This document shows, piece by piece, positions 1 to 16,482 of a stretch of 16,482 nt of DNA (within the stretch, counting starts at the first letter, position 1; the number at the start of each line of letters is the position of its first letter). Source of the stretch: Caldisericota bacterium (GTDB taxonomy: Bacteria > Caldisericota > JANLFM01); assembly GCA_024655865.1 (NCBI GenBank), contig JANLFM010000020.1:1-16482 (forward strand), given 5' to 3'. The notes below the pieces were generated by a model. The model was not told where the DNA came from. It saw only the letters and a list, made by a program, of their open reading frames with translations, and searched no databases. Position numbers and translations under genes: made by a program.

Positions 1-163
1 CCTCAATCACTACCCTTAATTTATCCTGAAGGCTTTTGAAGAACTCGACTATCTCAAGGTCCCTGTTTTCCAACTTCCTCCCTTTCACCACCTCGTTTCC
101 GCTGTCATCCACTACCGTTACCACGGAGAAAAGCTTGTGCATGTCCATCCCTGCATATAACAT
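1..163 (-). CDS. IS110-family transposase, N-terminal fragment (cut by window edge)
   Basis: The minus strand reads in frame from an ATG at 163 to the window edge, giving 54 residues that begin MLYAGMDMHKLFSVVTVVDD. The opening GMDMHK followed by short beta strands is typical of the RuvC-like DEDD domain of IS110/IS1111 transposases, where the first Asp is a catalytic residue. A good ribosome binding site (AAGGAGG, about 9 nt before the ATG) supports the start. These enzymes are RNA-guided serine/DEDD recombinases that excise and insert the element as a circle, using a bridge RNA encoded in one non-coding end. The rest of the gene lies left of the window, so the C-terminal serine domain cannot be checked. 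The family call rests on the N-terminal pattern only. Confidence 0.8.
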   Translation of the reverse strand, partial: MLYAGMDMHKLFSVVTVVDDSGNEVVKGRKLENRDLEIVEFFKSLQDKLRVVIE

Positions 164-203
164 AATTTCAAGCCTCCTTTTGTTGCTGCCCCTACTCAAA
201 AAA

Positions 204-337: not shown

Positions 338-1000
338 ATGGATGATGTTAGAAGAGAAATAACCTACTTTCGGTATTGTGGCGAGGCAAACACTGAAAAG
401 GTGCTACAAGCCGCAAAAAAGAGGTGCAAAGAACTGGGAATTGACCAAATAGTCATTGCATCCGAGACTGGCAGAAGTGCTCTGAAAGCTGTTGAGGTGT
501 TTCGCGGCACCAAAACTAAGATAATTGTGGTCACGCACTATCCTGCAACTACCTGGGGACCAAGGGGCGATATACCAATCGGATTAATGAGGGAGGAGTA
601 CTCAGAAACTCGGAAAAGACTATTAGAAAATGGGGTGATAATTGTTCAGGGTTCAAGACCTTTTGCTCCACCATCTCGATCAATTAAGTGGGAGTTTCCA
701 ACCCCTGAAGGTATCCTGGATAAAACCCTTGAGATATTTGGTGCCGGTACAAAAATAGCTATCGAGGCAGCGATTATGGCAACCGATGCAGGGAAAATCA
801 ATGAAGGCGAGGAGGTCGTGTCCTGTGCAGGCACTTACAAGGGTTTAGATACAGCTCTGGTGGTGAGGACTGCATATAGTATGAATTTTTTTAAGGATTT
901 CGAAGTGAGAGAGATTATAGTCAAACCCAGGTATCGAGTGAGAGAGCTTCCAGAATACAAATACGAAAACTGGAAAGGAGATCTGGATAAATATTATTAG
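338..1000 (+). CDS. pyruvate kinase alpha/beta (C-terminal) domain-like protein
   Basis: This 220-residue protein resembles the stand-alone relatives of the pyruvate kinase C-terminal domain (PK_C-like). Residues about 15-35 form a helix, and then IDQIVIASETGRSALKAVEV (36-55) is the strand-loop-helix seen in PK_C, with TKIIVVTHY as the next strand. A second alpha/beta half holds a GAGTKIAIEAAIMATDAGKI segment. There is no pyruvate kinase catalytic barrel, so it should not be a pyruvate kinase. In pyruvate kinase this fold carries the allosteric site; the role of free-standing versions is not established. The ATG is preceded by GAGGGG at a suitable distance and lies 3 bp after a truncated reading frame, suggesting it was once a downstream operon gene. 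Its codons look more A/T-rich than those of the genes that follow. Confidence 0.7.
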   Translation: MDDVRREITYFRYCGEANTEKVLQAAKKRCKELGIDQIVIASETGRSALKAVEVFRGTKTKIIVVTHYPATTWGPRGDIPIGLMREEYSETRKRLLENGVIIVQGSRPFAPPSRSIKWEFPTPEGILDKTLEIFGAGTKIAIEAAIMATDAGKINEGEEVVSCAGTYKGLDTALVVRTAYSMNFFKDFEVREIIVKPRYRVRELPEYKYENWKGDLDKYY

Positions 1001-4726: not shown

Positions 4727-7108
4727 TTAAATTTTGAAAAAGTCCTTGAGCTGATAGGCATACTGGCGGAGCTTTTCATAAACCCGAGCGTGGATACTCT
4801 CTGGAGTGAACTTTCCGTCAGGCTCCCTTTTTCCAGCGGGAATACCTGTGAGGATTTCCAGCCCTTCCTCCACCTTTTCTATAGCCCAAATGTGAAAGAG
4901 GTTCTTTTCCACTGCCTCCACTACTTCGTCCTTGAGCATCAAATGCTGAACATTGGCTTTAGGAATGATCACTCCCTGATTCCCGGTTAACCCCAAAGCC
5001 TTACACACTGAAAAGAAACCTTCAATTTTCTCGTTTACACCGCCAATGGGCTGGATCTCTCCGAACTGGTTCACGGAGCCTGTAACGGCAATTTCCTGGC
5101 TTAAGGAAACTTCGGCCAGGGCAGAGAGAAGAGCGAAAAGCTCTGCTGCGGAGGCACTATCTCCTTCAATTTCCTCGTACATCTGCTCGAAGGTCAAAGA
5201 TGCAGATAAACTCAGGGGAAAATCCTGGGCGTATTGCCCGCCGAGATACCCGGTGAGGATGAGCACTCCTTTGCTATGAATAGGCCCGGAGAGAGCAATT
5301 TCCCTTTCAATATTCACGACACCAGCACGGCCCAAAAATACCCGGGCCGTAATCTTGTTCGGTCTGCCAAAGGAGTAGTTCCCTGCGGCGTAAATGGAAA
5401 GGCCATTGATCTGCCCCACTTTCTCTCCTCTGGTTTCTATTAAGAGAACCCCCTTTTCGATCATTTCCTGGATTTTGTCCTCGATCAGGCGCGAGCGATA
5501 AAATTTCTCCTCAAGCGCCTTCTTCACATGGGATGCTTTGACGAACTCGCTGGATTCGCTCTTCGCCCAATAGCAGGCCTCGTAGGCGATGTCCGCGATC
5601 TCCATGAAACTTGCGGAGAGCTTGTCCTTTGACCCGGCGAGCCTCGATCCGTACTCCACAAGAGAGGCTACAGCACCGGCGTCAAAGTGGGAAATGCAGG
5701 GATCCTCACTGGCCAGGAGATTGATAAAGGAGGCATAATCGGCAACGGACTGTTCGTTACGATGAAATTCAGTATCGAAGTCGGCACGAATCTTAAAGAG
5801 CTTGGGAAAGTCCTCATCCAGAGCATAGAGGAGGAAGTAATGCCTTGGTTGCCCTATGATGATTACCTTCAAATCCACGGGGATGGGCTCCGGACGGAGG
5901 GTTGTAGTGGGCACACCGCCCACAAACTCCGAAAGGTTTTCCACTCTGGCCTCGCCTGAACGAAGCGCCCTTTTTAGCGCCTCCCAGGAAAAAGGGGAAG
6001 CCAGGAGCTCCTGGGCGGGGACAATCAGATACCCTCCATTTGCCTGCTGAAGTGCTCCTGCCTTGATCATGGTCTGATCGGTTATCCAGGTGCCGAAAGC
6101 CGAACGGTACTCAATTTTTCCCATGAGGTTGTAATAAGAGGGATTGGGCTCAAAGATCACAGGGGCGCCTTTGAGGCCAGCTCTGTTTACGAAGACGTTC
6201 ACCCTGTATTTCCCGAGTTCCGGTGCCCCTTTTTCCTCCTCTGCTCCCTCTTTTTCCCTAAATTCCCTGAGCCTGGAAACCAGGTCATTTTTGACTTCCT
6301 TAAGCCAGGAGATCAGCTCCTCTTGTCCCTGGAAGGGCTCCTCGTACTTCTGAAAAAGAGGTTCCAGCAGGGAGTAGGCCAGCTCTTTTTCAATTTTTCT
6401 CAGTTCCTCTCCGTACTGGCGGTCTATACGCCTGGATTCCAGTACCATTTCCTCAAGCAGTTGGTGCAATTTCTGGGAGTTCTCCCCGTAGGCTTTTTTC
6501 TCTTCCTCTGACAAAGCCTCGAACTCCTCCGGGCTGAGCTTTTTACCATCCTTTACGGGGATAGTGAGGATGCCCTGCGGGGTAGGCTCAATAGCAAAAC
6601 CTAAATTCAAAGCCGATTGCTGAACCTTGAGGAACAAGTCATGCTTTAAAGTCGCGACCTTTTGCTCTAAAGCATTTTTTCTTTCCTGGTAAACGGGGGA
6701 GGTGAAAAGCTTTCTCAACTCCACCTCACAGGAGGAAATCAGGGAGTCCACGGAGCGGGAAAAGAGAATCCCGGTTCCCGGTGGCAGGGAAATAGCTTTA
6801 GGACGATCTGGCTGAGTAAAATCGTAAACGTAAATCCAGTCTGAAGGAACCGGTTCCTTAAGTGCTCGCTCGCGAATTAGATTGGTAACGATGGAAGTTC
6901 GACCAGTACCCGTCCTGCCGGAGACAAAAATATTGAACCCCCGCGCTTTAATTCCCAGGCCTACCTCCAGGGATCTCATGGCCCTCTCCTGACCCACAAT
7001 TCGATCCAGAGGCCTGAGCTCCCTCGTATTTGAGAATTTGAGCTCATCGGTATTCAGGTGAGCGCACAACTCTTCTGGCTTCAGCCTCAAAGAATCTCTG
7101 TAAGACAT
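4727..7108 (-). CDS. LonB-like ATP-dependent protease (COG1067 type)
   Basis: The 793-residue protein has the layout of the Lon-related family with an N-terminal AAA module and a C-terminal Lon protease domain. The nucleotide loop is GRTGTGRTS (64-72), with Arg70 where the canonical Walker A Lys sits. A long charged, likely coiled-coil insert spans about 125-295. QQANGGYLIVPAQE (354-367) occupies the Walker B region, and VIIIGQPRHY the sensor region. The protease domain is about 565-755, with the catalytic dyad Ser651 in EGDSASAAE and Lys694 in GGVNEKIEG, and TGSVNQFGEIQPIGGVNEKI linking them. Such enzymes unfold and degrade damaged or specific proteins in the cytosol; some family members are membrane-associated, but no membrane helix stands out here. 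The start ATG has only a weak GAGGGG upstream. It is divergent from nadA across a 50-bp gap. Confidence 0.88.
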   Translation of the reverse strand: MSYRDSLRLKPEELCAHLNTDELKFSNTRELRPLDRIVGQERAMRSLEVGLGIKARGFNIFVSGRTGTGRTSIVTNLIRERALKEPVPSDWIYVYDFTQPDRPKAISLPPGTGILFSRSVDSLISSCEVELRKLFTSPVYQERKNALEQKVATLKHDLFLKVQQSALNLGFAIEPTPQGILTIPVKDGKKLSPEEFEALSEEEKKAYGENSQKLHQLLEEMVLESRRIDRQYGEELRKIEKELAYSLLEPLFQKYEEPFQGQEELISWLKEVKNDLVSRLREFREKEGAEEEKGAPELGKYRVNVFVNRAGLKGAPVIFEPNPSYYNLMGKIEYRSAFGTWITDQTMIKAGALQQANGGYLIVPAQELLASPFSWEALKRALRSGEARVENLSEFVGGVPTTTLRPEPIPVDLKVIIIGQPRHYFLLYALDEDFPKLFKIRADFDTEFHRNEQSVADYASFINLLASEDPCISHFDAGAVASLVEYGSRLAGSKDKLSASFMEIADIAYEACYWAKSESSEFVKASHVKKALEEKFYRSRLIEDKIQEMIEKGVLLIETRGEKVGQINGLSIYAAGNYSFGRPNKITARVFLGRAGVVNIEREIALSGPIHSKGVLILTGYLGGQYAQDFPLSLSASLTFEQMYEEIEGDSASAAELFALLSALAEVSLSQEIAVTGSVNQFGEIQPIGGVNEKIEGFFSVCKALGLTGNQGVIIPKANVQHLMLKDEVVEAVEKNLFHIWAIEKVEEGLEILTGIPAGKREPDGKFTPESIHARVYEKLRQYAYQLKDFFKI

Positions 7109-7158: not shown

Positions 7159-8070
7159 ATGGTGAAAAATCAGGAATCCTGGAAAGAGAAAATACTTGCC
7201 CTCAAAGAGGAGAAGGGGGCTTTAATTCTATCCCATAATTATCAATTGCCCGAAATTCAGGACGTAGCAGATTTTGTGGGCGATTCCCTGGAGCTTTCGC
7301 TTGAGGCGCAAAAAACCGATCGCGATTTAATTGTGTTTTGTGGAGTTTACTTTATGGCCGAGGTGGCCAGAATCCTTTCGGGAAAAAGGGTTCTAATGCC
7401 CGTCCTCACTGCTGGCTGTCCACTGGCCAACATGGCTACTAGGGAAGCTGTTCTGCGCATGAAAGAGGAGCATCCCAAAGCAGCCGTAGTCACCTATATC
7501 AATTCCTCGGCTGAGGTGAAAGCGGTCTCCGATGTTATTTGCACTTCCGCAAACGCCCTGAAAATCGTGGAGAAGGTACCGCAGGAGGAGATTATCTTCG
7601 TTCCCGACCAGGGCTTGGGAGGCTGGGTGAAAGAGCATACAAATAAAATAGTCCACCTCTGGCCCGGTTTTTGCCCCACTCATTACCGGATCATGGCTGA
7701 GGACATCATGAAGGCCCGTTCCGCTCATCCCGAGGCCAAAGTGCTGGTTCACCCGGAATGCCGTCCTGAGGTCAGGCGCCTGGCTGATCAGGTTTTAGGA
7801 ACAGGAGGGATGCTGCGCTTCGTCAGAAGCGATAGCGCCTCGAGCTATATCATCGGCACGGAGGAAGGCCTGCTCTATCGTTTAAGAAAGGAAAATCCCC
7901 AGAAGCAATTTTTCCTTGCTTCGCCTCTCCTTCTCTGCCCGAACATGAAAAAGACTGACGCCGCGGCCCTTTATGAATGTCTTAGAAACGAGACGGGGGA
8001 AATAGAAGTGCCCGAGGAAATTGCATCACAGGCGCGAAGGAGCCTCCTTTTGATGCTGGAGCTTACATGA
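7159..8070 (+). CDS. nadA: quinolinate synthase A
   Basis: NadA condenses iminoaspartate with dihydroxyacetone phosphate to quinolinate, the second step of de novo NAD synthesis, using a [4Fe-4S] cluster. The 303-residue length matches the short NadA form seen in thermophiles such as Thermotoga. Cluster ligands are Cys87 (TAGCPLA), Cys172 (GFCPTH) and Cys260 (LLCPNMK). Other family marks are LSHNYQLPEIQDVADFVGDS (24-43), TYINSSAEVKA (112-122), FVPDQGLGG (147-155) and HPECRPEV (198-205). The ATG at 7159 is preceded by TATAAT after only 6 nt, so it is probably translated leaderless; the next in-frame ATG comes far inside conserved sequence. The gene overlaps nadB by 4 bp (ATGA), which couples the two. 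Confidence 0.95.
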   Translation: MVKNQESWKEKILALKEEKGALILSHNYQLPEIQDVADFVGDSLELSLEAQKTDRDLIVFCGVYFMAEVARILSGKRVLMPVLTAGCPLANMATREAVLRMKEEHPKAAVVTYINSSAEVKAVSDVICTSANALKIVEKVPQEEIIFVPDQGLGGWVKEHTNKIVHLWPGFCPTHYRIMAEDIMKARSAHPEAKVLVHPECRPEVRRLADQVLGTGGMLRFVRSDSASSYIIGTEEGLLYRLRKENPQKQFFLASPLLLCPNMKKTDAAALYECLRNETGEIEVPEEIASQARRSLLLMLELT

Positions 8071-9656
8071 GAAGATACTTGATCTCTCCCTCCCTTATGA
8101 GGAATTTCCCCAGGGTAAAGACTGAGGTTCTCGTGGCCGGCACCGGTATTGCCGGCCTGTTTTTTGCTCTGAATTTTCCAGGCAAAGTTCTCCTTGTTTC
8201 CAAGGGGAAAGCTTTCGTCAGCAATTCTTCCCTCGCCCAGGGTGGCGTGGCTTGCGCTATCGGGCATGGCGATTCCCCAACTCTGCACTTCCAGGATACC
8301 ATCCGTGCGGGAGCTGGGCTCTCTTCTGAGGAAGCGGCCTGGGTTCTGGTCAGGGAGGCTGGTGCGGCAATCAGGGACCTGATTAAGATGGGGGTCAATT
8401 TCGATCGAGAGGACGGCCACCTTTCCCTGAACCGAGAAGGAAGCCATTCCGCCCGCCGCGTTCTTCATATCCGGGATAAGACCGGGGATGAAATCATCAG
8501 GACCCTTTACGAAAGGGCTCTTTCCCTTGATCGAGTACAATTTCTCGAAAATGAATATCTCGTCGACGTGCTCACCGAGGAAAACGCGGTAGTTGGAGCT
8601 GCGCTGTATGGCGCAAACGGGCCCTTAATCGTGGAAACTGGAGCGGTTGTTTTGGCCACAGGTGGTTACGCTTCTCTGCTTACCCCTTCCACCAACCCGG
8701 AAGGAACCACCGGCGATGGGCTAAGCATTGCCTATCGTGCGGGAGCTGAACTTTGCGATTTGGAATTTATTCAATTTCATCCCACAGTCCTCTATCATCA
8801 GGAATCCCCTCGCTTTTTGATCTCGGAGGCTGTACGAGGGGAAGGGGCCATTTTATTGAACCACAAGGGGGAACGCTTCATGCCCTCCTACCATCCTTTG
8901 GCGGAACTTGCTCCCAGAGACATCGTCTCCTACTCTATATACCAGGAAATGCAAAAGGAAGGTGTGGATCACGTATTTCTGGATATGAGGCCTATCGAGA
9001 AGGAAACTATTTCCAGGAGGTTTCCGGCGATCATAGAGAAATGCCGCTCTCTAGGCTGGGATCCAGTTTCAGAGCCCGTGCCTGTTTCCCCCGCCGCTCA
9101 TTATACAATGGGTGGAATTAAGGCTGACACCTGGGGTTTCACCTCGGTCAAAGGGCTATATGCTGTGGGGGAGGCCTCCTGCACCGGGGTGCATGGGGCG
9201 AACAGGTTAGCCTCCAACTCCTTGCTTGAGGGATTAGTATTTTCCAGAAGGCTGGCCCAGAAATTAGGCGAAACGAAAGCCGATTCTCCTACCCTCTCTT
9301 TGAAAGGAGAGGGTCTGAAATTGGTAGAGCGTAGGCCATCCTTCACCCTTCATGAACTGCGTTCTCTTCTGGGAACAAGAGCCGGGATCGTAAGGGATCG
9401 CACAGGGCTGGAAATGGCCTTGAAGCAGGTTTCTCAATGGCAGGAGGAGATTCAGCTTGCTTCCCTTAACAACGTCGAGGAGTTCCAGCTCTACAATTCC
9501 TGCACTTTGGCCTACCTGATTCTCGAAGCTGCAATGATGAGGGATGAAAGTCGAGGAGCGCACCAGAGATCGGATTTCCGAACTCGGGACGACGTCCGCT
9601 GGCAGAAACACATCTGCTTCAAATGGGAAGGAGAGGAAAGGACGATGGTGAGGTGA
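8067..9656 (+). CDS. nadB: L-aspartate oxidase
   Basis: NadB oxidises L-aspartate to iminoaspartate, the unstable substrate handed to NadA; it is a cytosolic FAD enzyme that can use oxygen or fumarate. The 529-residue protein shows the FAD-binding GTGIAG (25-30), SLAQGG (55-60), HSARRVLHIRDKTG (127-140), ATGG (197-200), the substrate-site QFHPT (His238), SEAVRGEG, PRDIVSYS (Arg284) and AHYTMGG (His345). The flavin-clasping VHGANRLASNSLLEG (375-389) and the C-terminal helical domain with ESRGAHQRSDF (494-504) are also present. All key residues appear intact. The start codon overlaps the nadA stop and has GGAG 5 nt upstream. The N-terminus carries about 18 residues before the FAD strand, so an internal start at ATG 8097 is possible but less likely. 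The end overlaps nadC. Confidence 0.95.
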   Translation: MRRYLISPSLMRNFPRVKTEVLVAGTGIAGLFFALNFPGKVLLVSKGKAFVSNSSLAQGGVACAIGHGDSPTLHFQDTIRAGAGLSSEEAAWVLVREAGAAIRDLIKMGVNFDREDGHLSLNREGSHSARRVLHIRDKTGDEIIRTLYERALSLDRVQFLENEYLVDVLTEENAVVGAALYGANGPLIVETGAVVLATGGYASLLTPSTNPEGTTGDGLSIAYRAGAELCDLEFIQFHPTVLYHQESPRFLISEAVRGEGAILLNHKGERFMPSYHPLAELAPRDIVSYSIYQEMQKEGVDHVFLDMRPIEKETISRRFPAIIEKCRSLGWDPVSEPVPVSPAAHYTMGGIKADTWGFTSVKGLYAVGEASCTGVHGANRLASNSLLEGLVFSRRLAQKLGETKADSPTLSLKGEGLKLVERRPSFTLHELRSLLGTRAGIVRDRTGLEMALKQVSQWQEEIQLASLNNVEEFQLYNSCTLAYLILEAAMMRDESRGAHQRSDFRTRDDVRWQKHICFKWEGEERTMVR

Positions 9657-10480
9657 ATATCCGGGATAAGCTTAAGGAAGCTCTGGCAGAGGACATTGGC
9701 TCCGGGGATGTAACGAGCGAAGCCCTGATCCCTGAGGGACATGTCTCCCGCGCTTTCTTTCTGGCAAAGGAGGGAGGAGTTCTCTGCGGCTTGCCTTTTG
9801 CCCTGGAGGTATTCAGATTCCTCGACCCGAATCTGGAAACAGAACCCAGCTTTCAGGATGGAGACCTCCTTGAACCGGGAACAATTTTTTGCAGGATTAA
9901 GGGCCTTACCAGGGCCATCCTCTCCGGGGAAAGGGTCGCCCTTAATTTGCTCTGCCGCCTTTCGGGAATTGCCACGATGACGCACAGGTTCGTTCAGCTT
10001 GTTGAGGGCACCGGGGCTCGCATCCTGGATACCAGAAAAACCACCCCCCTCTGGCGGGATCTGGAAAAATATGCCGTGCGCACTGGAGGGGGAATGAACC
10101 ACCGCATGGGCCTCTACGATATGGTACTGATCAAGGACAACCATATAAGAGCGAAGGGTGGGATCAAAGAGGCCATAAAAGCGGCCAGGGAATCCATCAG
10201 ACCAGGAATGATGGTGGAAATTGAAGTGACTAATTTTGAGGAGTTCCAGGAAGCACTGAAGGAGAAGGCCGACTGGATTATGCTCGATAACATGTCTCCC
10301 CTTGAGATGAGGCGTTGCGTGGAGGTGGGTAAGAGCAAGGCAATCCTGGAAGCTTCCGGAGGGATAAATGAAAGGAACATCCGGGAGGTGGCGGAATCCG
10401 GCGTAGATTTTATATCCCTTGGGGCTTTGACACACTCGGTTAAGGCACTTGATATTAGTCTGGAATTGGAGGAAAATTAA
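9653..10480 (+). CDS. nadC: nicotinate-nucleotide pyrophosphorylase (quinolinate phosphoribosyltransferase)
   Basis: NadC joins quinolinate and PRPP, releasing CO2 and pyrophosphate to give nicotinate mononucleotide, the last enzyme of the nadABC operon. Family marks, counted from the GTG start, are AEDIGSGDVTSEALIP (12-27), ERVALNLLCRLSGIAT (93-108), LDTRKTTPLWR (125-135), GGGMNHRMGLYD (145-156), IKDNH (160-164), EIEV, MLDNM (210-214), EASGGI (233-238) and SLGALTHS (255-262). I place the start at GTG 9653 because it overlaps the nadB stop as GTGA, has AAAGG upstream, and gives the usual N-terminus VNIRDKLKEALAEDIG. An ATG at 9623 would add ten atypical residues with no ribosome site. Length 275 residues is normal. 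A terminator follows 30 bp after the stop. Confidence 0.95.
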   Translation: MNIRDKLKEALAEDIGSGDVTSEALIPEGHVSRAFFLAKEGGVLCGLPFALEVFRFLDPNLETEPSFQDGDLLEPGTIFCRIKGLTRAILSGERVALNLLCRLSGIATMTHRFVQLVEGTGARILDTRKTTPLWRDLEKYAVRTGGGMNHRMGLYDMVLIKDNHIRAKGGIKEAIKAARESIRPGMMVEIEVTNFEEFQEALKEKADWIMLDNMSPLEMRRCVEVGKSKAILEASGGINERNIREVAESGVDFISLGALTHSVKALDISLELEEN

Positions 10481-11806: not shown

Positions 11807-11833
11807 AAAAAAATCCCTTCGAAGGGATTTTTG
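11807..11833 (+). terminator. intrinsic terminator of the S1 gene, overlapping the next start codon
   Basis: AAAAATCCCTTC (11809-11820) and GAAGGGATTTTT (11821-11832) form a perfect 24-bp palindrome with an A tract before it and a T tract after it, 4 bp past the S1 stop. The palindrome can stop transcription in both directions. The TTG start inferred for the endonuclease III gene (11831) lies in the T tract. Confidence 0.8.
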
Positions 11834-12484
11834 AAGGAGCTCCACTCCCGGCTGAAAAGCTTTTATGGGGAAGTAAATATCTCTCCGACTGATCCTACGG
11901 AGGAGCTAATTTCTACTATTCTCTCCCAGAACACCAATGACCGGAATCGGGACCTGGCGTTCGCCAAGTTGAGGAAGAGATTCCCCGCATGGGAAGATGT
12001 AACTCAGGCTCCTACTCGCGAGGTGGAGGAGTCCATCAGGATGGCCGGACTTGCTACCTCCAAGGCCCCGCGCATCCAGAAGGTCCTTCGTCTAATTAAG
12101 GAGAAATACGGCCAGTTTTCTCTTCCTGATACGGAAAAACGCAAGGAACTATTTAAGTTTCTCCTTTCCCTTCCCGGAGTTGGTCCTAAAACCGCAAGGT
12201 GCGTTCTCCTTTTCTCGTATGGTTACCCCGTGTTCCCGGTGGATACCCACATCCTCCGCGTGGGAAGAAGGCTAAGATTCATCGGGGAAAAAGAAAGTCC
12301 CGCAAGGGCTATGGATAGACTGGATCGCTTGATTCCAGAAGGCCTTCACCTTTCCCTGCACCTCTTATTAATCGAGCACGGAAGAAAGACTTGTCGGCCT
12401 CGCCCTCTTTGCGAGGTTTGCCCTCTCAGAGATCTCTGCTCCTTTTTTGAGGAAAAAACTCCTTTAATGTCCGAGAAAGTTTGA
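11831..12484 (+). CDS. nth: endonuclease III-type DNA glycosylase/AP lyase
   Basis: Endonuclease III removes oxidised pyrimidines and nicks the abasic site in base excision repair. The 217-residue protein has the helix-hairpin-helix LPGVGPKTA with Lys120, the Schiff-base lysine, and Asp138 in FPVDTHILRV. Four Cys (188, 194, 197, 203) form the C-terminal iron-sulfur loop. The first spacing is Cys-X5-Cys rather than the usual X6; the others are X2 and X5. ISTILSQNTND (27-37) is the conserved N-terminal helix. The start is uncertain: no ATG or GTG is available in frame upstream of conserved sequence, and TTG 11831 lies in the T tract of the S1 terminator. The only purine-rich site before it, AAGGGA, is inside the hairpin stem. 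Expression may therefore depend on read-through from the S1 gene. Confidence 0.88.
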   Translation: MKELHSRLKSFYGEVNISPTDPTEELISTILSQNTNDRNRDLAFAKLRKRFPAWEDVTQAPTREVEESIRMAGLATSKAPRIQKVLRLIKEKYGQFSLPDTEKRKELFKFLLSLPGVGPKTARCVLLFSYGYPVFPVDTHILRVGRRLRFIGEKESPARAMDRLDRLIPEGLHLSLHLLLIEHGRKTCRPRPLCEVCPLRDLCSFFEEKTPLMSEKV

Positions 12485-12517
12485 AAAAGCGAGGTTAAAC
12501 CTCGCTTTTTTCTTTTG
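12484..12517 (+). terminator. intrinsic terminator after the endonuclease III gene
   Basis: AAAAAGCGAGG (12484-12494) and CCTCGCTTTTT (12500-12510) form an 11-bp stem with loop TTAAA, followed by a T-rich tract to 12517. It begins in the stop codon. About 65 bp remain before the next gene, so that gene must have its own promoter; TTGCGT (12541) with TTTACT (12564) at 17 bp is a weak candidate. Confidence 0.88.
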
Positions 12518-12584
12518 GAAAGTATTTCCTTTCCTACCTCTTGCGTCCATTTGATTTTCCGACTTTACTTAAAGTGAGGTAAAA

Positions 12585-13379
12585 ATGGGCGACATTCAAG
12601 CTTCCCTGCGTTGGAGAGGATTCAGGGTGGTGGCCGCAAATAGCCTGGAGAGCGTCATTCTCCCTCCAGAGAAGAAGGACTGGGAGGAATACTACCAGTT
12701 TCTCAGGGATTATTATTTCCGCCGTATGTTAGCGGACATCGTCCAGCTAAAGACAATCGGCAAGGAAGAGCGCCAGGCTCTGGCCGAAAGGTGGAGTGAA
12801 GAGGCTTTAGGGAAGTACTGGCCTGTATACGAACGCCTTGGCTTGATACGGAGAGCCGACCGCGGCTACCTGTTTTTTAAACCTCATCTGGACAACTTCG
12901 GCGCCACGTTTGAATGGTTTCTGGCCCAGGTTCTGGAGAGGGAGTTTTTTGCCCAGGTACTGTGGTCCGTGCGATTGGAAGGTCTCTCCGGTGGAGGGGA
13001 TTTTGACGTTCTTTCCCTCTTCGGGGAGCGGCTTTTCTATATAGAAGGGAAGTCTTCACCTCCCAACAACGTTCCGTACGCAGAAATTGAGAACTTTCTC
13101 CAGAGGGAGGAGGAGCTCTCTTGCGACTGCGCCCTCATGATCAACGACACAACCCTGAGGATCGAGCGCAATATCCTGGATAACATGATTTATGCTATCA
13201 GACAGAGGTTTGGCCTGGAAAAGGATAAGGCCTACTCCCTCGTTGAAGCCCTAAATGGGAACATCTATTTCATTTCTCCCAAAATTTTCATTATGAACAC
13301 TAAGAGGGACATCGTGGTGAACCTGGAGCGGGCCCTGAATTTCTATTTTTCTCGCTTAGTGCCCAAAATAAAGCCATGA
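12585..13379 (+). CDS. uncharacterised protein with PD-(D/E)XK-like nuclease motif
   Basis: I do not recognise this 264-residue family. An N-terminal helical part (about 30-85) leads into YWPVYERLGLIRRADRGYLFF (78-98), which has the helix-strand-turn-strand look of a winged helix. The second half holds GGGDFDVLSLFGERLFYIEGKSS: Asp139/Asp141, then Glu154 and Lys156 thirteen residues on, matching the core of PD-(D/E)XK nucleases, with a preceding acidic helix (FEWFLAQVLEREFF, 109-122) where such folds often place another acid. After it, AEIENFLQREEELSCDCALMI resembles the helix and strand that close the fold. No membrane segment or signal is seen. GAGGT 6 nt before the ATG supports the start, and a terminator isolates it from the gene before. 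It overlaps the CinA-like gene by 4 bp, so the two are made together. Nuclease activity is an inference. Confidence 0.6.
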   Translation: MGDIQASLRWRGFRVVAANSLESVILPPEKKDWEEYYQFLRDYYFRRMLADIVQLKTIGKEERQALAERWSEEALGKYWPVYERLGLIRRADRGYLFFKPHLDNFGATFEWFLAQVLEREFFAQVLWSVRLEGLSGGGDFDVLSLFGERLFYIEGKSSPPNNVPYAEIENFLQREEELSCDCALMINDTTLRIERNILDNMIYAIRQRFGLEKDKAYSLVEALNGNIYFISPKIFIMNTKRDIVVNLERALNFYFSRLVPKIKP

Positions 13380-14416
13380 GGAGCCTGATTGTATTCTCCT
13401 CGGAATTCCCGAAGGAAGGCGAGCTTTTTAAAGCGTTGAAAGCCCTCGATGACCTGGGTTTGGCCTGGGAAAGCGTTCATATAATCTCAGATTTCAGGGA
13501 AGTGGAAGGTCTGGCGAAAGCCTTTCTAGGAAAGCCAATATTTGTTTTTGGGTCTCGGACGCCGCAATCCCTATTAGAAAAAGAAGGATGGCTCAAATTA
13601 GCCGAGCAGGAAGAGAGCTTGATTCTTATGAAGAGGGACAGCCCGCTCTTTTTTATTAGGGAAGTCGATGCTTTATCATCCTTGGTCCCAAAGCTCAACC
13701 TGGCCGGACTTGATGCCAAAACCTATGGCAAAACTATTTATCTTTTTCCCTGCAGTCAGGGAGTGCGGGAAACAATCTGGGAAACGCTTTTTCCCAACCC
13801 CGAGATCTTCACTACTAAATGCCATGCTCTGATTCATCTGGTTTTCCAGGGGGAAAAGGATGAATCCCAAGGTTTCTTCCAGAGTTTGATGGAGCGCGTT
13901 AAGGATGCTTTGAAGGAAAAGGTTGAATTGTTTTACCTGGGACCTAAATTTTTGTGGCAGGAAGTAGGGGAGGAACTTTTAAAAAGGAGGATAAAGGTGG
14001 GGGTTGCTGAATCGCTGACCGGGGGCCTGATCTCTCATCTTTTAACTGAAACCCCGGGTGCATCCAATTACTTTTATCAGGGTCTTGTGACTTACAGAAC
14101 GGAGTCCAAATCCCATATTTTAGGGATCGGGAAGATTATCGAGGAGAAAGGGGTAATTTCCGGAGAAGTGGCTTTGGAAATGGCACGAAAGGCGAGGGAG
14201 CTTGCTCGTGCGGAAATCGGGATCGGGATCACCGGACTGGCGGGACCAGGCGGTGGATCAGTAGAAATTCCGGTGGGAACCGTATTTCTGGGGGTAGTGG
14301 GCGGGGGAAAAGAGATCCTGCGCAGACTGGCTATGGAGGGGGACAGGCAGGAAATCAGGCTTCAAAGCGCTTGTTGGGCTCTACTACTTTTGAAAATGGT
14401 CTTAGAAAAGCTTTGA
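13376..14416 (+). CDS. CinA-like protein with intact PncC (NMN amidohydrolase) domain and decayed N-terminal domain
   Basis: The C-terminal half (about 196-346) is a clear CinA/PncC domain: VGVAESLTGGLISHLL with catalytic Ser213, ETPGASNYFYQGLVTY, GVISGEVALEMA and GITGLAGPGGGSVEIPVGTV (284-303). This domain deamidates nicotinamide mononucleotide to nicotinate mononucleotide. The N-terminal 155 residues have the order of strands expected of the MoCF-like COG1058 domain of full-length CinA (IVFSSEFPKEGELF; VHIISDFREVEGLAKAF; KPIFVFGSRTPQSL; GKTIYLFPCSQGVRETIWE). However, the usual GGLGPTxDDxT loop is replaced by FGSRTPQSLLEKEG. Its ADP-ribose pyrophosphatase-type activity is therefore probably lost. 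The 4-bp ATGA overlap couples it to the nuclease-like gene. The product enters the same NAD pathway as the nadABC operon 3 kb upstream. Length 346 is shorter than the usual 400-420. Confidence 0.82.
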   Translation: MRSLIVFSSEFPKEGELFKALKALDDLGLAWESVHIISDFREVEGLAKAFLGKPIFVFGSRTPQSLLEKEGWLKLAEQEESLILMKRDSPLFFIREVDALSSLVPKLNLAGLDAKTYGKTIYLFPCSQGVRETIWETLFPNPEIFTTKCHALIHLVFQGEKDESQGFFQSLMERVKDALKEKVELFYLGPKFLWQEVGEELLKRRIKVGVAESLTGGLISHLLTETPGASNYFYQGLVTYRTESKSHILGIGKIIEEKGVISGEVALEMARKARELARAEIGIGITGLAGPGGGSVEIPVGTVFLGVVGGGKEILRRLAMEGDRQEIRLQSACWALLLLKMVLEKL

Positions 14417-14493: not shown

Positions 14494-14539
14494 AAGCCAG
14501 AAGGCGGGGGAGGCCCCGCCTTCTGGCTTAAGTTTTTTA
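14494..14539. terminator. strong intrinsic terminator between converging genes
   Basis: AAGCCAGAAGGCGGGG (14494-14509) and CCCCGCCTTCTGGCTT (14514-14529) form a perfect 16-bp stem with loop GAGG, followed by AAGTTTTTTAG on the plus strand. It ends the nuclease-like/CinA unit and, from the other side, the surface protein gene. On the minus strand only a short TTTC follows, so it is stronger in the plus direction. Confidence 0.88.
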
Positions 14540-14551
14540 GACCGCTCTTTT

Positions 14552-16482
14552 TTAAAAGTCTTCCTTCTTACTCTTTTTCAGCACCAGGAAGAGCACCCCT
14601 CCAAGAATAAGGAGTATGCCGCCAATGCCGAAGAGGTAAGAAATGGGGACTCCCGTCACAGGGAGAGCAGTTTCTCCCGCAACTTCAGGGGTTGGAGTGG
14701 GGGGCGGAGTAGCTGTTTCGCCGGCTACTTCTGGCGATGGGGGTGTAGGAGGTGGAGTAACTGTTTCGCCGGCAGGGGGAGTTGGAGTAGGGGTAGGGAC
14801 AGGAGTTGGCGTATTTATTATGTCTCCAAGATCCACAACCTTCCCCTGGGAATCGATCACCACGTTCCAGCTCGTGGTGAGGAGCTCGTAACCCTCAGGG
14901 GCCTTGGTCTCCTTGAGGATGTATTCCCCGTAAGGGATCCCGGTGAAGCTCAATGTGCCGTCCGATGCCGTTGTTCTGGAAGCGACCACGGCCCCATTAG
15001 CGTCGTAGAGCGTGAACTCGGCACCCGCTAAAGGAGTTCCTGTAGAGGTAACCTTCCTCAGGGTGAGCGAGCCAGTTATGGGCATGTTGGAAATGTTTCC
15101 AAGATCTACTACTTGCCCTTGGTAACTGATGGAGACATTCAAGGGATCGATTGCGGCAATGTAACCCTCAGGGACCCCAGTCTCCTTGAGGATGTAACTC
15201 CCATAAGGGATCCCGCTGAAAGTCAGTGTGCCATCAGCAGCCGTAGTTCCCACCCGGATTACTGTTACTCCATTAGCAGCGTAGAGCGTGAACCCGGCAC
15301 CCGCTAAGACCGCTCCTCCCGCACCTAACTTCCTCAGGGTGAGGCTGCCAGTTATGGGAATGTTCGTAAGGTCGAAGCTGACTACCTGGCCCTGGCTGTT
15401 AATAACTACAGCTCTGTCAGCGACGCCTAAATAACCAGCTGGTACCAAACTTTCCACCAGGACATAGTGACCGAAGGGAATGTTAGTGAAAGCAAGGTTT
15501 CCGTTAGCATCAGTTATCCCGGAATTCCGGACAAGACTCTCACCAGAATCGTGAGTACCGTTCTTGTTATCGTCGACGAAGAGGACGAAGCCTGCTCCGG
15601 CCAGTGGTCCTGCTCCGATGCCCCTCTTGTGAATCGTGACGCTGCCCAGAATCTGGGTGTTGGTTGCCGTGAAAGTAAAGTCGAGAGCGTTGGCGGTAAC
15701 GGTGAATGTTTGCGGCAATCCACTGGCAACGTACCCCGCAGGAACATTTTCGCTGAGAGTGTACTGGCCCCAATCCAGGTTATCCCAAACCAGATTGCCA
15801 GCTCCGTTAAGGCTCTTCGTGGATCCGCTTGGACCACTTAAAGTGAAAGAAACGTTTCCAGCGGGTGGTGTACCAACATAGACCTTTGTTAAGGTAACCT
15901 TTCCAGGAGACCTACTATTCCTGAAAGTGAAGGATATTGTTAGATGCTCCCCATCAATAGTTCCCGTTTGAGGTGGTGCAATGTCGTATCCGGCAGAGGC
16001 AGATTCTTCCTTCACGGTGTAGGTTCCCCAATCCAGACCGGTCCACTCCACTGTGCCTGAACCGTCTGTGGTCTTGTTCCCGTCTATTTGCACGCTATCT
16101 TTCCATAGAGAGAAGGTCACGCCAGCCAAGGGAAGCCCAGTTTGGGCGTCCAATTTTAAAACCTCCACCGTCCCCTTATTCTGGGTGTTGGTGGCTGTGA
16201 AGGTGAAGGAGAGGTTGCTCCCGTCGATGGTGAAGGTCTCAGAGAAAGCTCCCGTGTATCCCGCAGGCACCCCGGTCTCCGCCAGGGTGTACTGGCCCCA
16301 ATCCAGGTTATTCCAGACCAGGGGATTGCTCCCGTTCGTGGTCAGGGCGCTCGCATAGCTGTTTTCTGTGCTGGTCAGGGTGAACTCCGCTCCAGCCAGG
16401 GGTTTCCCGTCCTGATCCACCTTGGTTACCTCCACCGTCCCCTTATTCTGGGTGTTGGTGGCTGTGAAGGTGAAGGAGAGGT
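14552..16482 (-). CDS. LPXTG-anchored surface protein with SpaA/Cna-B-type repeats, C-terminal part
   Basis: The frame is open from the right edge to TAA at 14552, so the N-terminus and signal peptide lie outside the window. The GTG at 16435 is an internal codon in a repeat, not a start. Six consecutive domains of 86-99 residues follow (each beginning like VEVTKV, VEVLKL, VTLTKV, VTIHKR, LTLRKL, LTLRKV), and a further one begins at the edge. Each has the E-box (ETGVPAGY, ENVPAGY, ETKAPEGY and variants) of SpaA/Cna-B prealbumin-like domains. A stalk of about 47 residues rich in Pro/Thr with two EVAGETA units precedes LPVTG, a hydrophobic helix and KKSKKEDF, the standard sortase sorting signal. 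The protein is thus covalently wall-attached, as pilins, adhesins and structural rods are. No sortase gene is in view. Terminators flank its 3' end. Confidence 0.85.
   Translation of the reverse strand, partial: LSFTFTATNTQNKGTVEVTKVDQDGKPLAGAEFTLTSTENSYASALTTNGSNPLVWNNLDWGQYTLAETGVPAGYTGAFSETFTIDGSNLSFTFTATNTQNKGTVEVLKLDAQTGLPLAGVTFSLWKDSVQIDGNKTTDGSGTVEWTGLDWGTYTVKEESASAGYDIAPPQTGTIDGEHLTISFTFRNSRSPGKVTLTKVYVGTPPAGNVSFTLSGPSGSTKSLNGAGNLVWDNLDWGQYTLSENVPAGYVASGLPQTFTVTANALDFTFTATNTQILGSVTIHKRGIGAGPLAGAGFVLFVDDNKNGTHDSGESLVRNSGITDANGNLAFTNIPFGHYVLVESLVPAGYLGVADRAVVINSQGQVVSFDLTNIPITGSLTLRKLGAGGAVLAGAGFTLYAANGVTVIRVGTTAADGTLTFSGIPYGSYILKETGVPEGYIAAIDPLNVSISYQGQVVDLGNISNMPITGSLTLRKVTSTGTPLAGAEFTLYDANGAVVASRTTASDGTLSFTGIPYGEYILKETKAPEGYELLTTSWNVVIDSQGKVVDLGDIINTPTPVPTPTPTPPAGETVTPPPTPPSPEVAGETATPPPTPTPEVAGETALPVTGVPISYLFGIGGILLILGGVLFLVLKKSKKEDF
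16161..16215 (-). repeat. 55-bp direct repeat, copy 1, in the surface protein gene
   Basis: This segment is identical base for base to 16428-16482. The offset is 267 bp, exactly 89 codons, the length of one repeat domain. It encodes the last strand and linker of one domain and the start of the next. Confidence 0.9.
16428..16482 (-). repeat. 55-bp direct repeat, copy 2, continuing past the window edge
   Basis: It matches 16161-16215 perfectly over 55 bp and is cut by the edge, so the identical stretch may be longer. A shorter shared stretch of about 25 bp (GTGTACTGGCCCCAATCCAG and the next bases) occurs at 15759 and 16287. Such identity is expected from recent domain duplication or gene conversion. 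Confidence 0.88.

Follow-up and report, generated by a model that had tools for sequence, protein, structure and literature searches.

The locus in the Caldisericota genome

The window analysed here is a stretch of 16,482 nucleotides from a Caldisericota bacterium (contig JANLFM010000020.1 of assembly GCA_024655865.1; C12 among the 63 contigs of the 1.82 Mb source genome, G000). On its forward strand, positions 12585-13379 encode a 264-residue protein, here called X, which is a Can2/Card1-like protein of the PD-(D/E)XK type without a CARF domain. A Shine-Dalgarno-like GAGG (12576-12579, forward) lies 5 nt 5' of its ATG, and a similar GAGG precedes X in the congeneric genome G001. The next gene is cinA/pncC (13376-14416, forward), with a degenerate N-terminal domain and an intact PncC domain. 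The two genes overlap by 4 bp (ATGA), the cinA ATG starting at 13376 and the TGA stop of X occupying 13377-13379, and the same overlap is present in G001. The cinA gene lacks a Shine-Dalgarno sequence of its own, which fits translational coupling to X.

Upstream of X are nadA, nadB, nadC, a gene for an S1-domain protein and then nth (11831-12484, forward; endonuclease III family, PF00730, E 6.7e-17). The three nad genes overlap one another (7159-10480, forward), and the same surroundings, with S1, nth and cinA, are seen in genomes of the same family. A terminator-like hairpin lies between nth and X (12483-12511, forward; -16.9 kcal/mol, z -4.6), and a second lies 3' of cinA (14494-14529, forward; -35.4 kcal/mol, z -5.8). 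The preliminary description had reported this pair, its 4-bp overlap and terminators on both sides; its coordinates and lengths are exact, and the hairpins bear out the terminators. By eye, no comparable hairpin is found in the nth-X gap of G001.

Fold and active site of X

The AlphaFold2 (AF2) model of X is confident (pLDDT 90, pTM 0.88) and has two parts. Residues 30-97 (12672-12875, forward) form a winged-helix-like region, with helices at 30-40, 43-55, 60-70 and 72-84 and strands at 88-91 and 94-97, and winged-helix chains of the MarR/ArsR type align to residues ~29-125. Residues 104-256 (12894-13352, forward) form the core, in which a helix (104-121), three strands (124-132, 139-146 and 149-156), a helix (165-178) and a further strand (182-187) follow each other in the predicted model in the alpha-beta-beta-beta-alpha-beta order expected of the PD-(D/E)XK superfamily. 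The nuclease domains of Can2, Cdn1, AF1548, Hjc and FokI align to this core.

The conserved acidic residues and the E-x-K of the superfamily are also present. The GGDFD motif (12993-13007, forward) contains Asp139 and Asp141 and falls at the place of Can2 Glu276/Asp278, the residues altered in the inactive Can2 mutant E276A/D278A (PMC7969007). The E-x-K motif (13044-13052, forward) contains Glu154 and Lys156 and is followed by an invariant Pro159-Pro160, while Glu110 in the first core helix (12912-12914, forward) is kept in 52 of 53 aligned homologues. Positions that never vary among these 53 are Tyr43, Arg46, Gly137, Gly138, Asp139, Asp141, Glu154, Lys156, Pro159, Pro160, Arg174, Asp188, Thr189 and Leu191. 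A motif of this kind is weak evidence by itself, but here all four active-site residues are invariant in 53/53 homologues. X is thus well supported, on its modelled fold and conserved residues, as a predicted PD-(D/E)XK nuclease. The motifs GGGDFD and IEGK, the numbering of the four residues, the PD-(D/E)XK active site and the winged-helix-like segment had all been proposed from the sequence, and each is upheld by the model and the alignment. By analogy with other nucleases of the family, Asp139, Asp141 and Glu154 would hold the metal and Lys156 would assist cleavage, with the winged helix probably binding nucleic acid.

Relationship to the effector half of Can2, Card1 and Cdn1

When compared alone with Pfam, NCBIfam, PADLOC and PHROGs, X falls into no family, and searches of the PDB by sequence, with single sequence and profile, gave nothing meaningful. 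PF09002 does not match the window protein, and the best relative reaches E 0.057, under the curated cut-off. Comparison of the model with solved structures (VIA-align) is more informative. Residues 1-252 of X superpose on Can2 140-365 with Z 14.3 (rmsd 3.6 over 194), Cdn1 follows with Z 13.7 and VC1899 with 12.4, and Cdn1, VC1899, Can1 and Card1 all lie at Z 10-14; the Foldseek E-value of the model against VC1899 is 1.6e-6. AF1548 scores Z 8.6 and other nucleases at most 7.6. As X fits Can2 140-365 along its whole length, it corresponds to the effector half, with the CARF half absent.

Profile comparisons, which had been suggested as a check of the nuclease assignment, lead to the same enzymes. 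The X family profile matches a 392-aa Card1_endonuc protein of genome G148 (E 7e-5), and in the alignment residue 3 of X pairs with residue 142 of the G148 protein, GGDFDV...IEGK with ENEFDV...IECK. Four further Card1-type proteins align in the same register (probability 93.7), the NEFDV of the Card1 family falling on the GGDFD of X and VECK/IECK on its E-x-K. In addition, the PADLOC models CARF_PDDEXK and Csx1 match several members of the X family, down to 1.7e-6, and where match ranges are listed they are in the post-CARF half. By eye, the neighbours of the G148 gene are a Cas10-like gene, genes for RAMP proteins and a gene resembling reverse transcriptase-Cas1 (RT-Cas1-like). Together with the CARF/Card1-type nuclease they make up what appears as a type III CRISPR locus of G148 (L141:2287-10001).

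Together these comparisons show homology between X and the effector half of Can2/Card1/Cdn1, nucleases of type III CRISPR; the CARF domain, which senses cyclic oligoadenylates, is missing from X. With Can2, Card1 and VC1899 (DUF1887, PF09002) X shares the winged helix and PD-(D/E)XK half over its full length, an active site of acidic-x-Asp and Glu-x-Lys, and the helix Glu. It differs from them in having no CARF domain, in falling below the PF09002 cut-off, in having no link to a type III CRISPR locus, in its vertical inheritance, and in its own invariant motifs G-G-D-x-D, E-x-K-x-x-P-P and D-T-x-L. The effector half of Cdn1 (9u49, 8z4i) aligns to X 1-255; Cdn1, however, has a cyclic-oligoadenylate sensor and X has none. 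Archaeal Hjc/AF1548-type PD-(D/E)XK enzymes share the core fold (Z 6-9), and Hjc gives weak profile matches (E 0.015-0.04), but here only the nuclease core aligns, from X ~105 onward, and scores are lower. The kind of enzyme is thus a known one, the Can2/Card1-like effector half, and what is new is the CARF-less variant. No CARF-less Card1-like family was found in a literature search, outside the scope of which lay the 2020 CARF classification.

A winged helix follows CARF in most CARF proteins (PMC4012209). In the X family only a short helix precedes the aligned part in homologues. In most of them an N-terminal helix of 25-35 residues with heptad repeats stands at the place of CARF, significant in most against shuffled sequences; it is absent in the lineage of the window protein and in a few others. 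Most homologues may pair through this helix, which would replace the CARF dimer, and the window protein would lack this means of pairing.

The same relatives raise the question of substrate. Can2 cleaves both DNA and RNA (PMC7969007) and Cdn1, which aligns at Z 13.7, is described as a ribonuclease in the title of PMC12825302, so that X might be an active nuclease that processes or turns over RNA and does not act on DNA. An active site of the EndoMS/AgeI type together with a winged helix is, however, more usual in DNA enzymes, and no RNA-metabolism gene is a conserved neighbour of X. Action on RNA in place of DNA is considered rather doubtful.

Distribution and inheritance of X

Homologues of X were found in 21 of 61 relatives, in 36 of 386 genomes sampled across the domain, in 7/7 genomes of the phylum of G130 and in 36/148 genomes of the phylum of G313, a few of the last being weak matches. 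When genome contigs were searched with the single X sequence, the congener alone matched. Genomes with X include G388 and G389, which we take to be Dictyoglomus, and G008, presumably Caldisericum exile. X is thus a member of a widespread, uncharacterised bacterial nuclease family without an entry in the copies of Pfam and NCBIfam that were searched.

X is a single-copy gene. In the tree of 53 homologues each lineage forms one clade and the tree follows taxonomy, which shows vertical inheritance. A horizontal origin from Dictyoglomota was also considered and is unsupported; the Caldisericota sequences lie on one side of a branch that is neither supported nor rejected (68/67). No homologues were found in plasmids, phages or viral contigs.

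As all the closest structures are type III effectors, X could instead act on its own against phages or as an ancillary effector of type III CRISPR, activated by another protein in place of its own CARF. Cas10 is indeed found in 28 of the 56 X-bearing genomes tested, but the other 28 gave no match, and neither Cas10 nor Card1 was matched in the window genome. As usual, a gene missing from a draft genome is a less certain absence. Inspection of the neighbours at ~50 X loci revealed no recognisable cas genes. Set beside the taxonomic tree, the failure to find X in plasmids or phages and the lack of any PADLOC family for the window protein, this makes a defence effector unlikely, and X is independent of type III CRISPR.

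Single copy, a tree that follows taxonomy, no copies found in plasmids, phages or viruses, and the lack of Cas10 in half of the genomes are what one would expect of a housekeeping gene on the chromosome. The best explanation, to which we give a probability of roughly 0.6, is that X is a metal-dependent, vertically inherited, stand-alone housekeeping nuclease of winged helix plus PD-(D/E)XK that serves chromosomal maintenance. It would act in the maintenance of chromosomal DNA, possibly of RNA, and not in inducible defence; a role in genome maintenance appears likeliest, with moderate confidence. X is unevenly spread across phyla and turns up in about 5-9% of the genomes sampled, fewer than a core repair enzyme would lead one to expect, and this counts against the explanation.

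Genomic neighbours of X

Within single lineages some neighbours are stable. Dictyoglomus has rarA, holB and ricT beside X, family f5 has surE and topoisomerase IA, f2 has genes for a rhomboid protein and a nucleoside phosphorylase, and part of the G313 phylum has polX. No neighbour is common to more than 3 of 15 lineages. Genes for DNA repair (nth, rarA/holB, topoisomerase IA, polX, recJ, dnaN) stand within two genes of X in about 5 of 15 lineages, against about 2.7 expected if a rough 5% gene share is assumed. The assignments of nth, rarA/holB, topoisomerase IA, polX and recJ hold. A repair operon was considered on this basis, and so rough an estimate does not separate it from chance. A restriction-modification reading was likewise set aside: no methyltransferase was recognised among the neighbours, and a restriction-like neighbour occurs at one locus only (L133).

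CinA and its association with X

CinA of the window matches PF02464 (E 6.8e-45 over residues 194-341). PF00994 gives no match, and matches to the CinA models of NCBIfam do not begin before residue 140. Ser213, Tyr240 and Lys245 are invariant in alignment A4, with the spacing of S31/Y58/K63 in A. tumefaciens CinA (PMC5384747), and the CinA model matches the whole chain of T. thermophilus CinA. Like the CinA/PncC NMN deamidases of T. thermophilus (4ct8) and A. tumefaciens (2a9s), it has a PncC domain with the Ser/Lys dyad and a whole-chain fold; unlike them, it has a shortened COG1058 (MoCF-like) domain at the N-terminus, which Pfam does not recognise. The N-terminal ~190 residues (13376-13954) look like a degenerate MoCF/COG1058 domain, and the same is seen by alignment in G001, G002 and G004. 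No second CinA gene was found in the source genome, and with nadA, nadB and nadC upstream an NMN deamidase gene is natural in this neighbourhood. From its sequence CinA is predicted to be an NMN deamidase that belongs with the NAD genes beside it.

The preliminary description had raised the possibility that X and CinA form a system. A functional two-gene system of this kind would couple NAD(P) precursor or nucleotide metabolism to nucleic-acid cleavage. The overlap in both congeneric genomes, the lack of a ribosome-binding site before cinA and the hairpins flanking the pair are in its favour. However, X stands beside cinA only in the window genome and G001, two of about 50 X loci. Twenty genomes tested have one CinA gene each, and in every other X-bearing genome tested it is located elsewhere, in complete genomes far from X (e.g. 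662 kb and 781 kb, G008). In G002 and G004, of the same family, X was not found; their gene order likewise runs from the nad genes through S1 and nth to cinA, and there nth and cinA are immediate neighbours. The N-terminus of CinA is degenerate in these two genomes as well, so its degeneration is independent of X.

A system of X and CinA is thus largely refuted by comparative genomics and is regarded as highly improbable. Random neighbours in other genomes had been named beforehand as evidence against it, and the neighbours of X do vary between lineages. Of the preliminary description, then, the nuclease identity of X stands and the X-CinA system falls. As far as gene order tells, cinA is a local neighbour of X and no conserved partner. 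X may have arrived between nth and cinA in the genus of the window, or vanished from there in the sister genera, and cinA would now merely be translated after it.

Possible origin of Can2/Card1-type nucleases

The Can2/Card1-type nucleases known so far are switched on by second messengers of CRISPR systems. The X family is broad and vertically inherited, shares their effector half with the active site intact and has no sensor, which points to a housekeeping origin or to independent control of this nuclease. We tentatively suggest, as a possibility well short of even odds, that X represents the free-standing housekeeping nuclease that was the source of the Can2/Card1 effector half before CARF fusion. 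If so, the activator and substrate of X would show the role of Can2/Card1-type enzymes before cyclic-nucleotide control. Thermophile members of the X family, as in Dictyoglomus and Caldisericum, would be practical targets for structure and assay.

Other genes of the window

At the downstream end, a SpaA-type repetitive protein (14552-16480, reverse) runs off the window. It has six or more prealbumin-like domains and, at its C-terminus, an anchor of the LPVTG type; its counterpart in G001 is partly masked as N. At the other edge, an open reading frame cut by the window (2-199, reverse) resembles by eye the start of an IS110-type transposase, with no Pfam match at this length. A LonB/LonC-like AAA protease is encoded at 4727-7108 (reverse; PF13654, PF20436, PF20437), and a stand-alone protein at 338-1000 (forward) matches nothing but the C-terminal, alpha/beta domain of pyruvate kinase.
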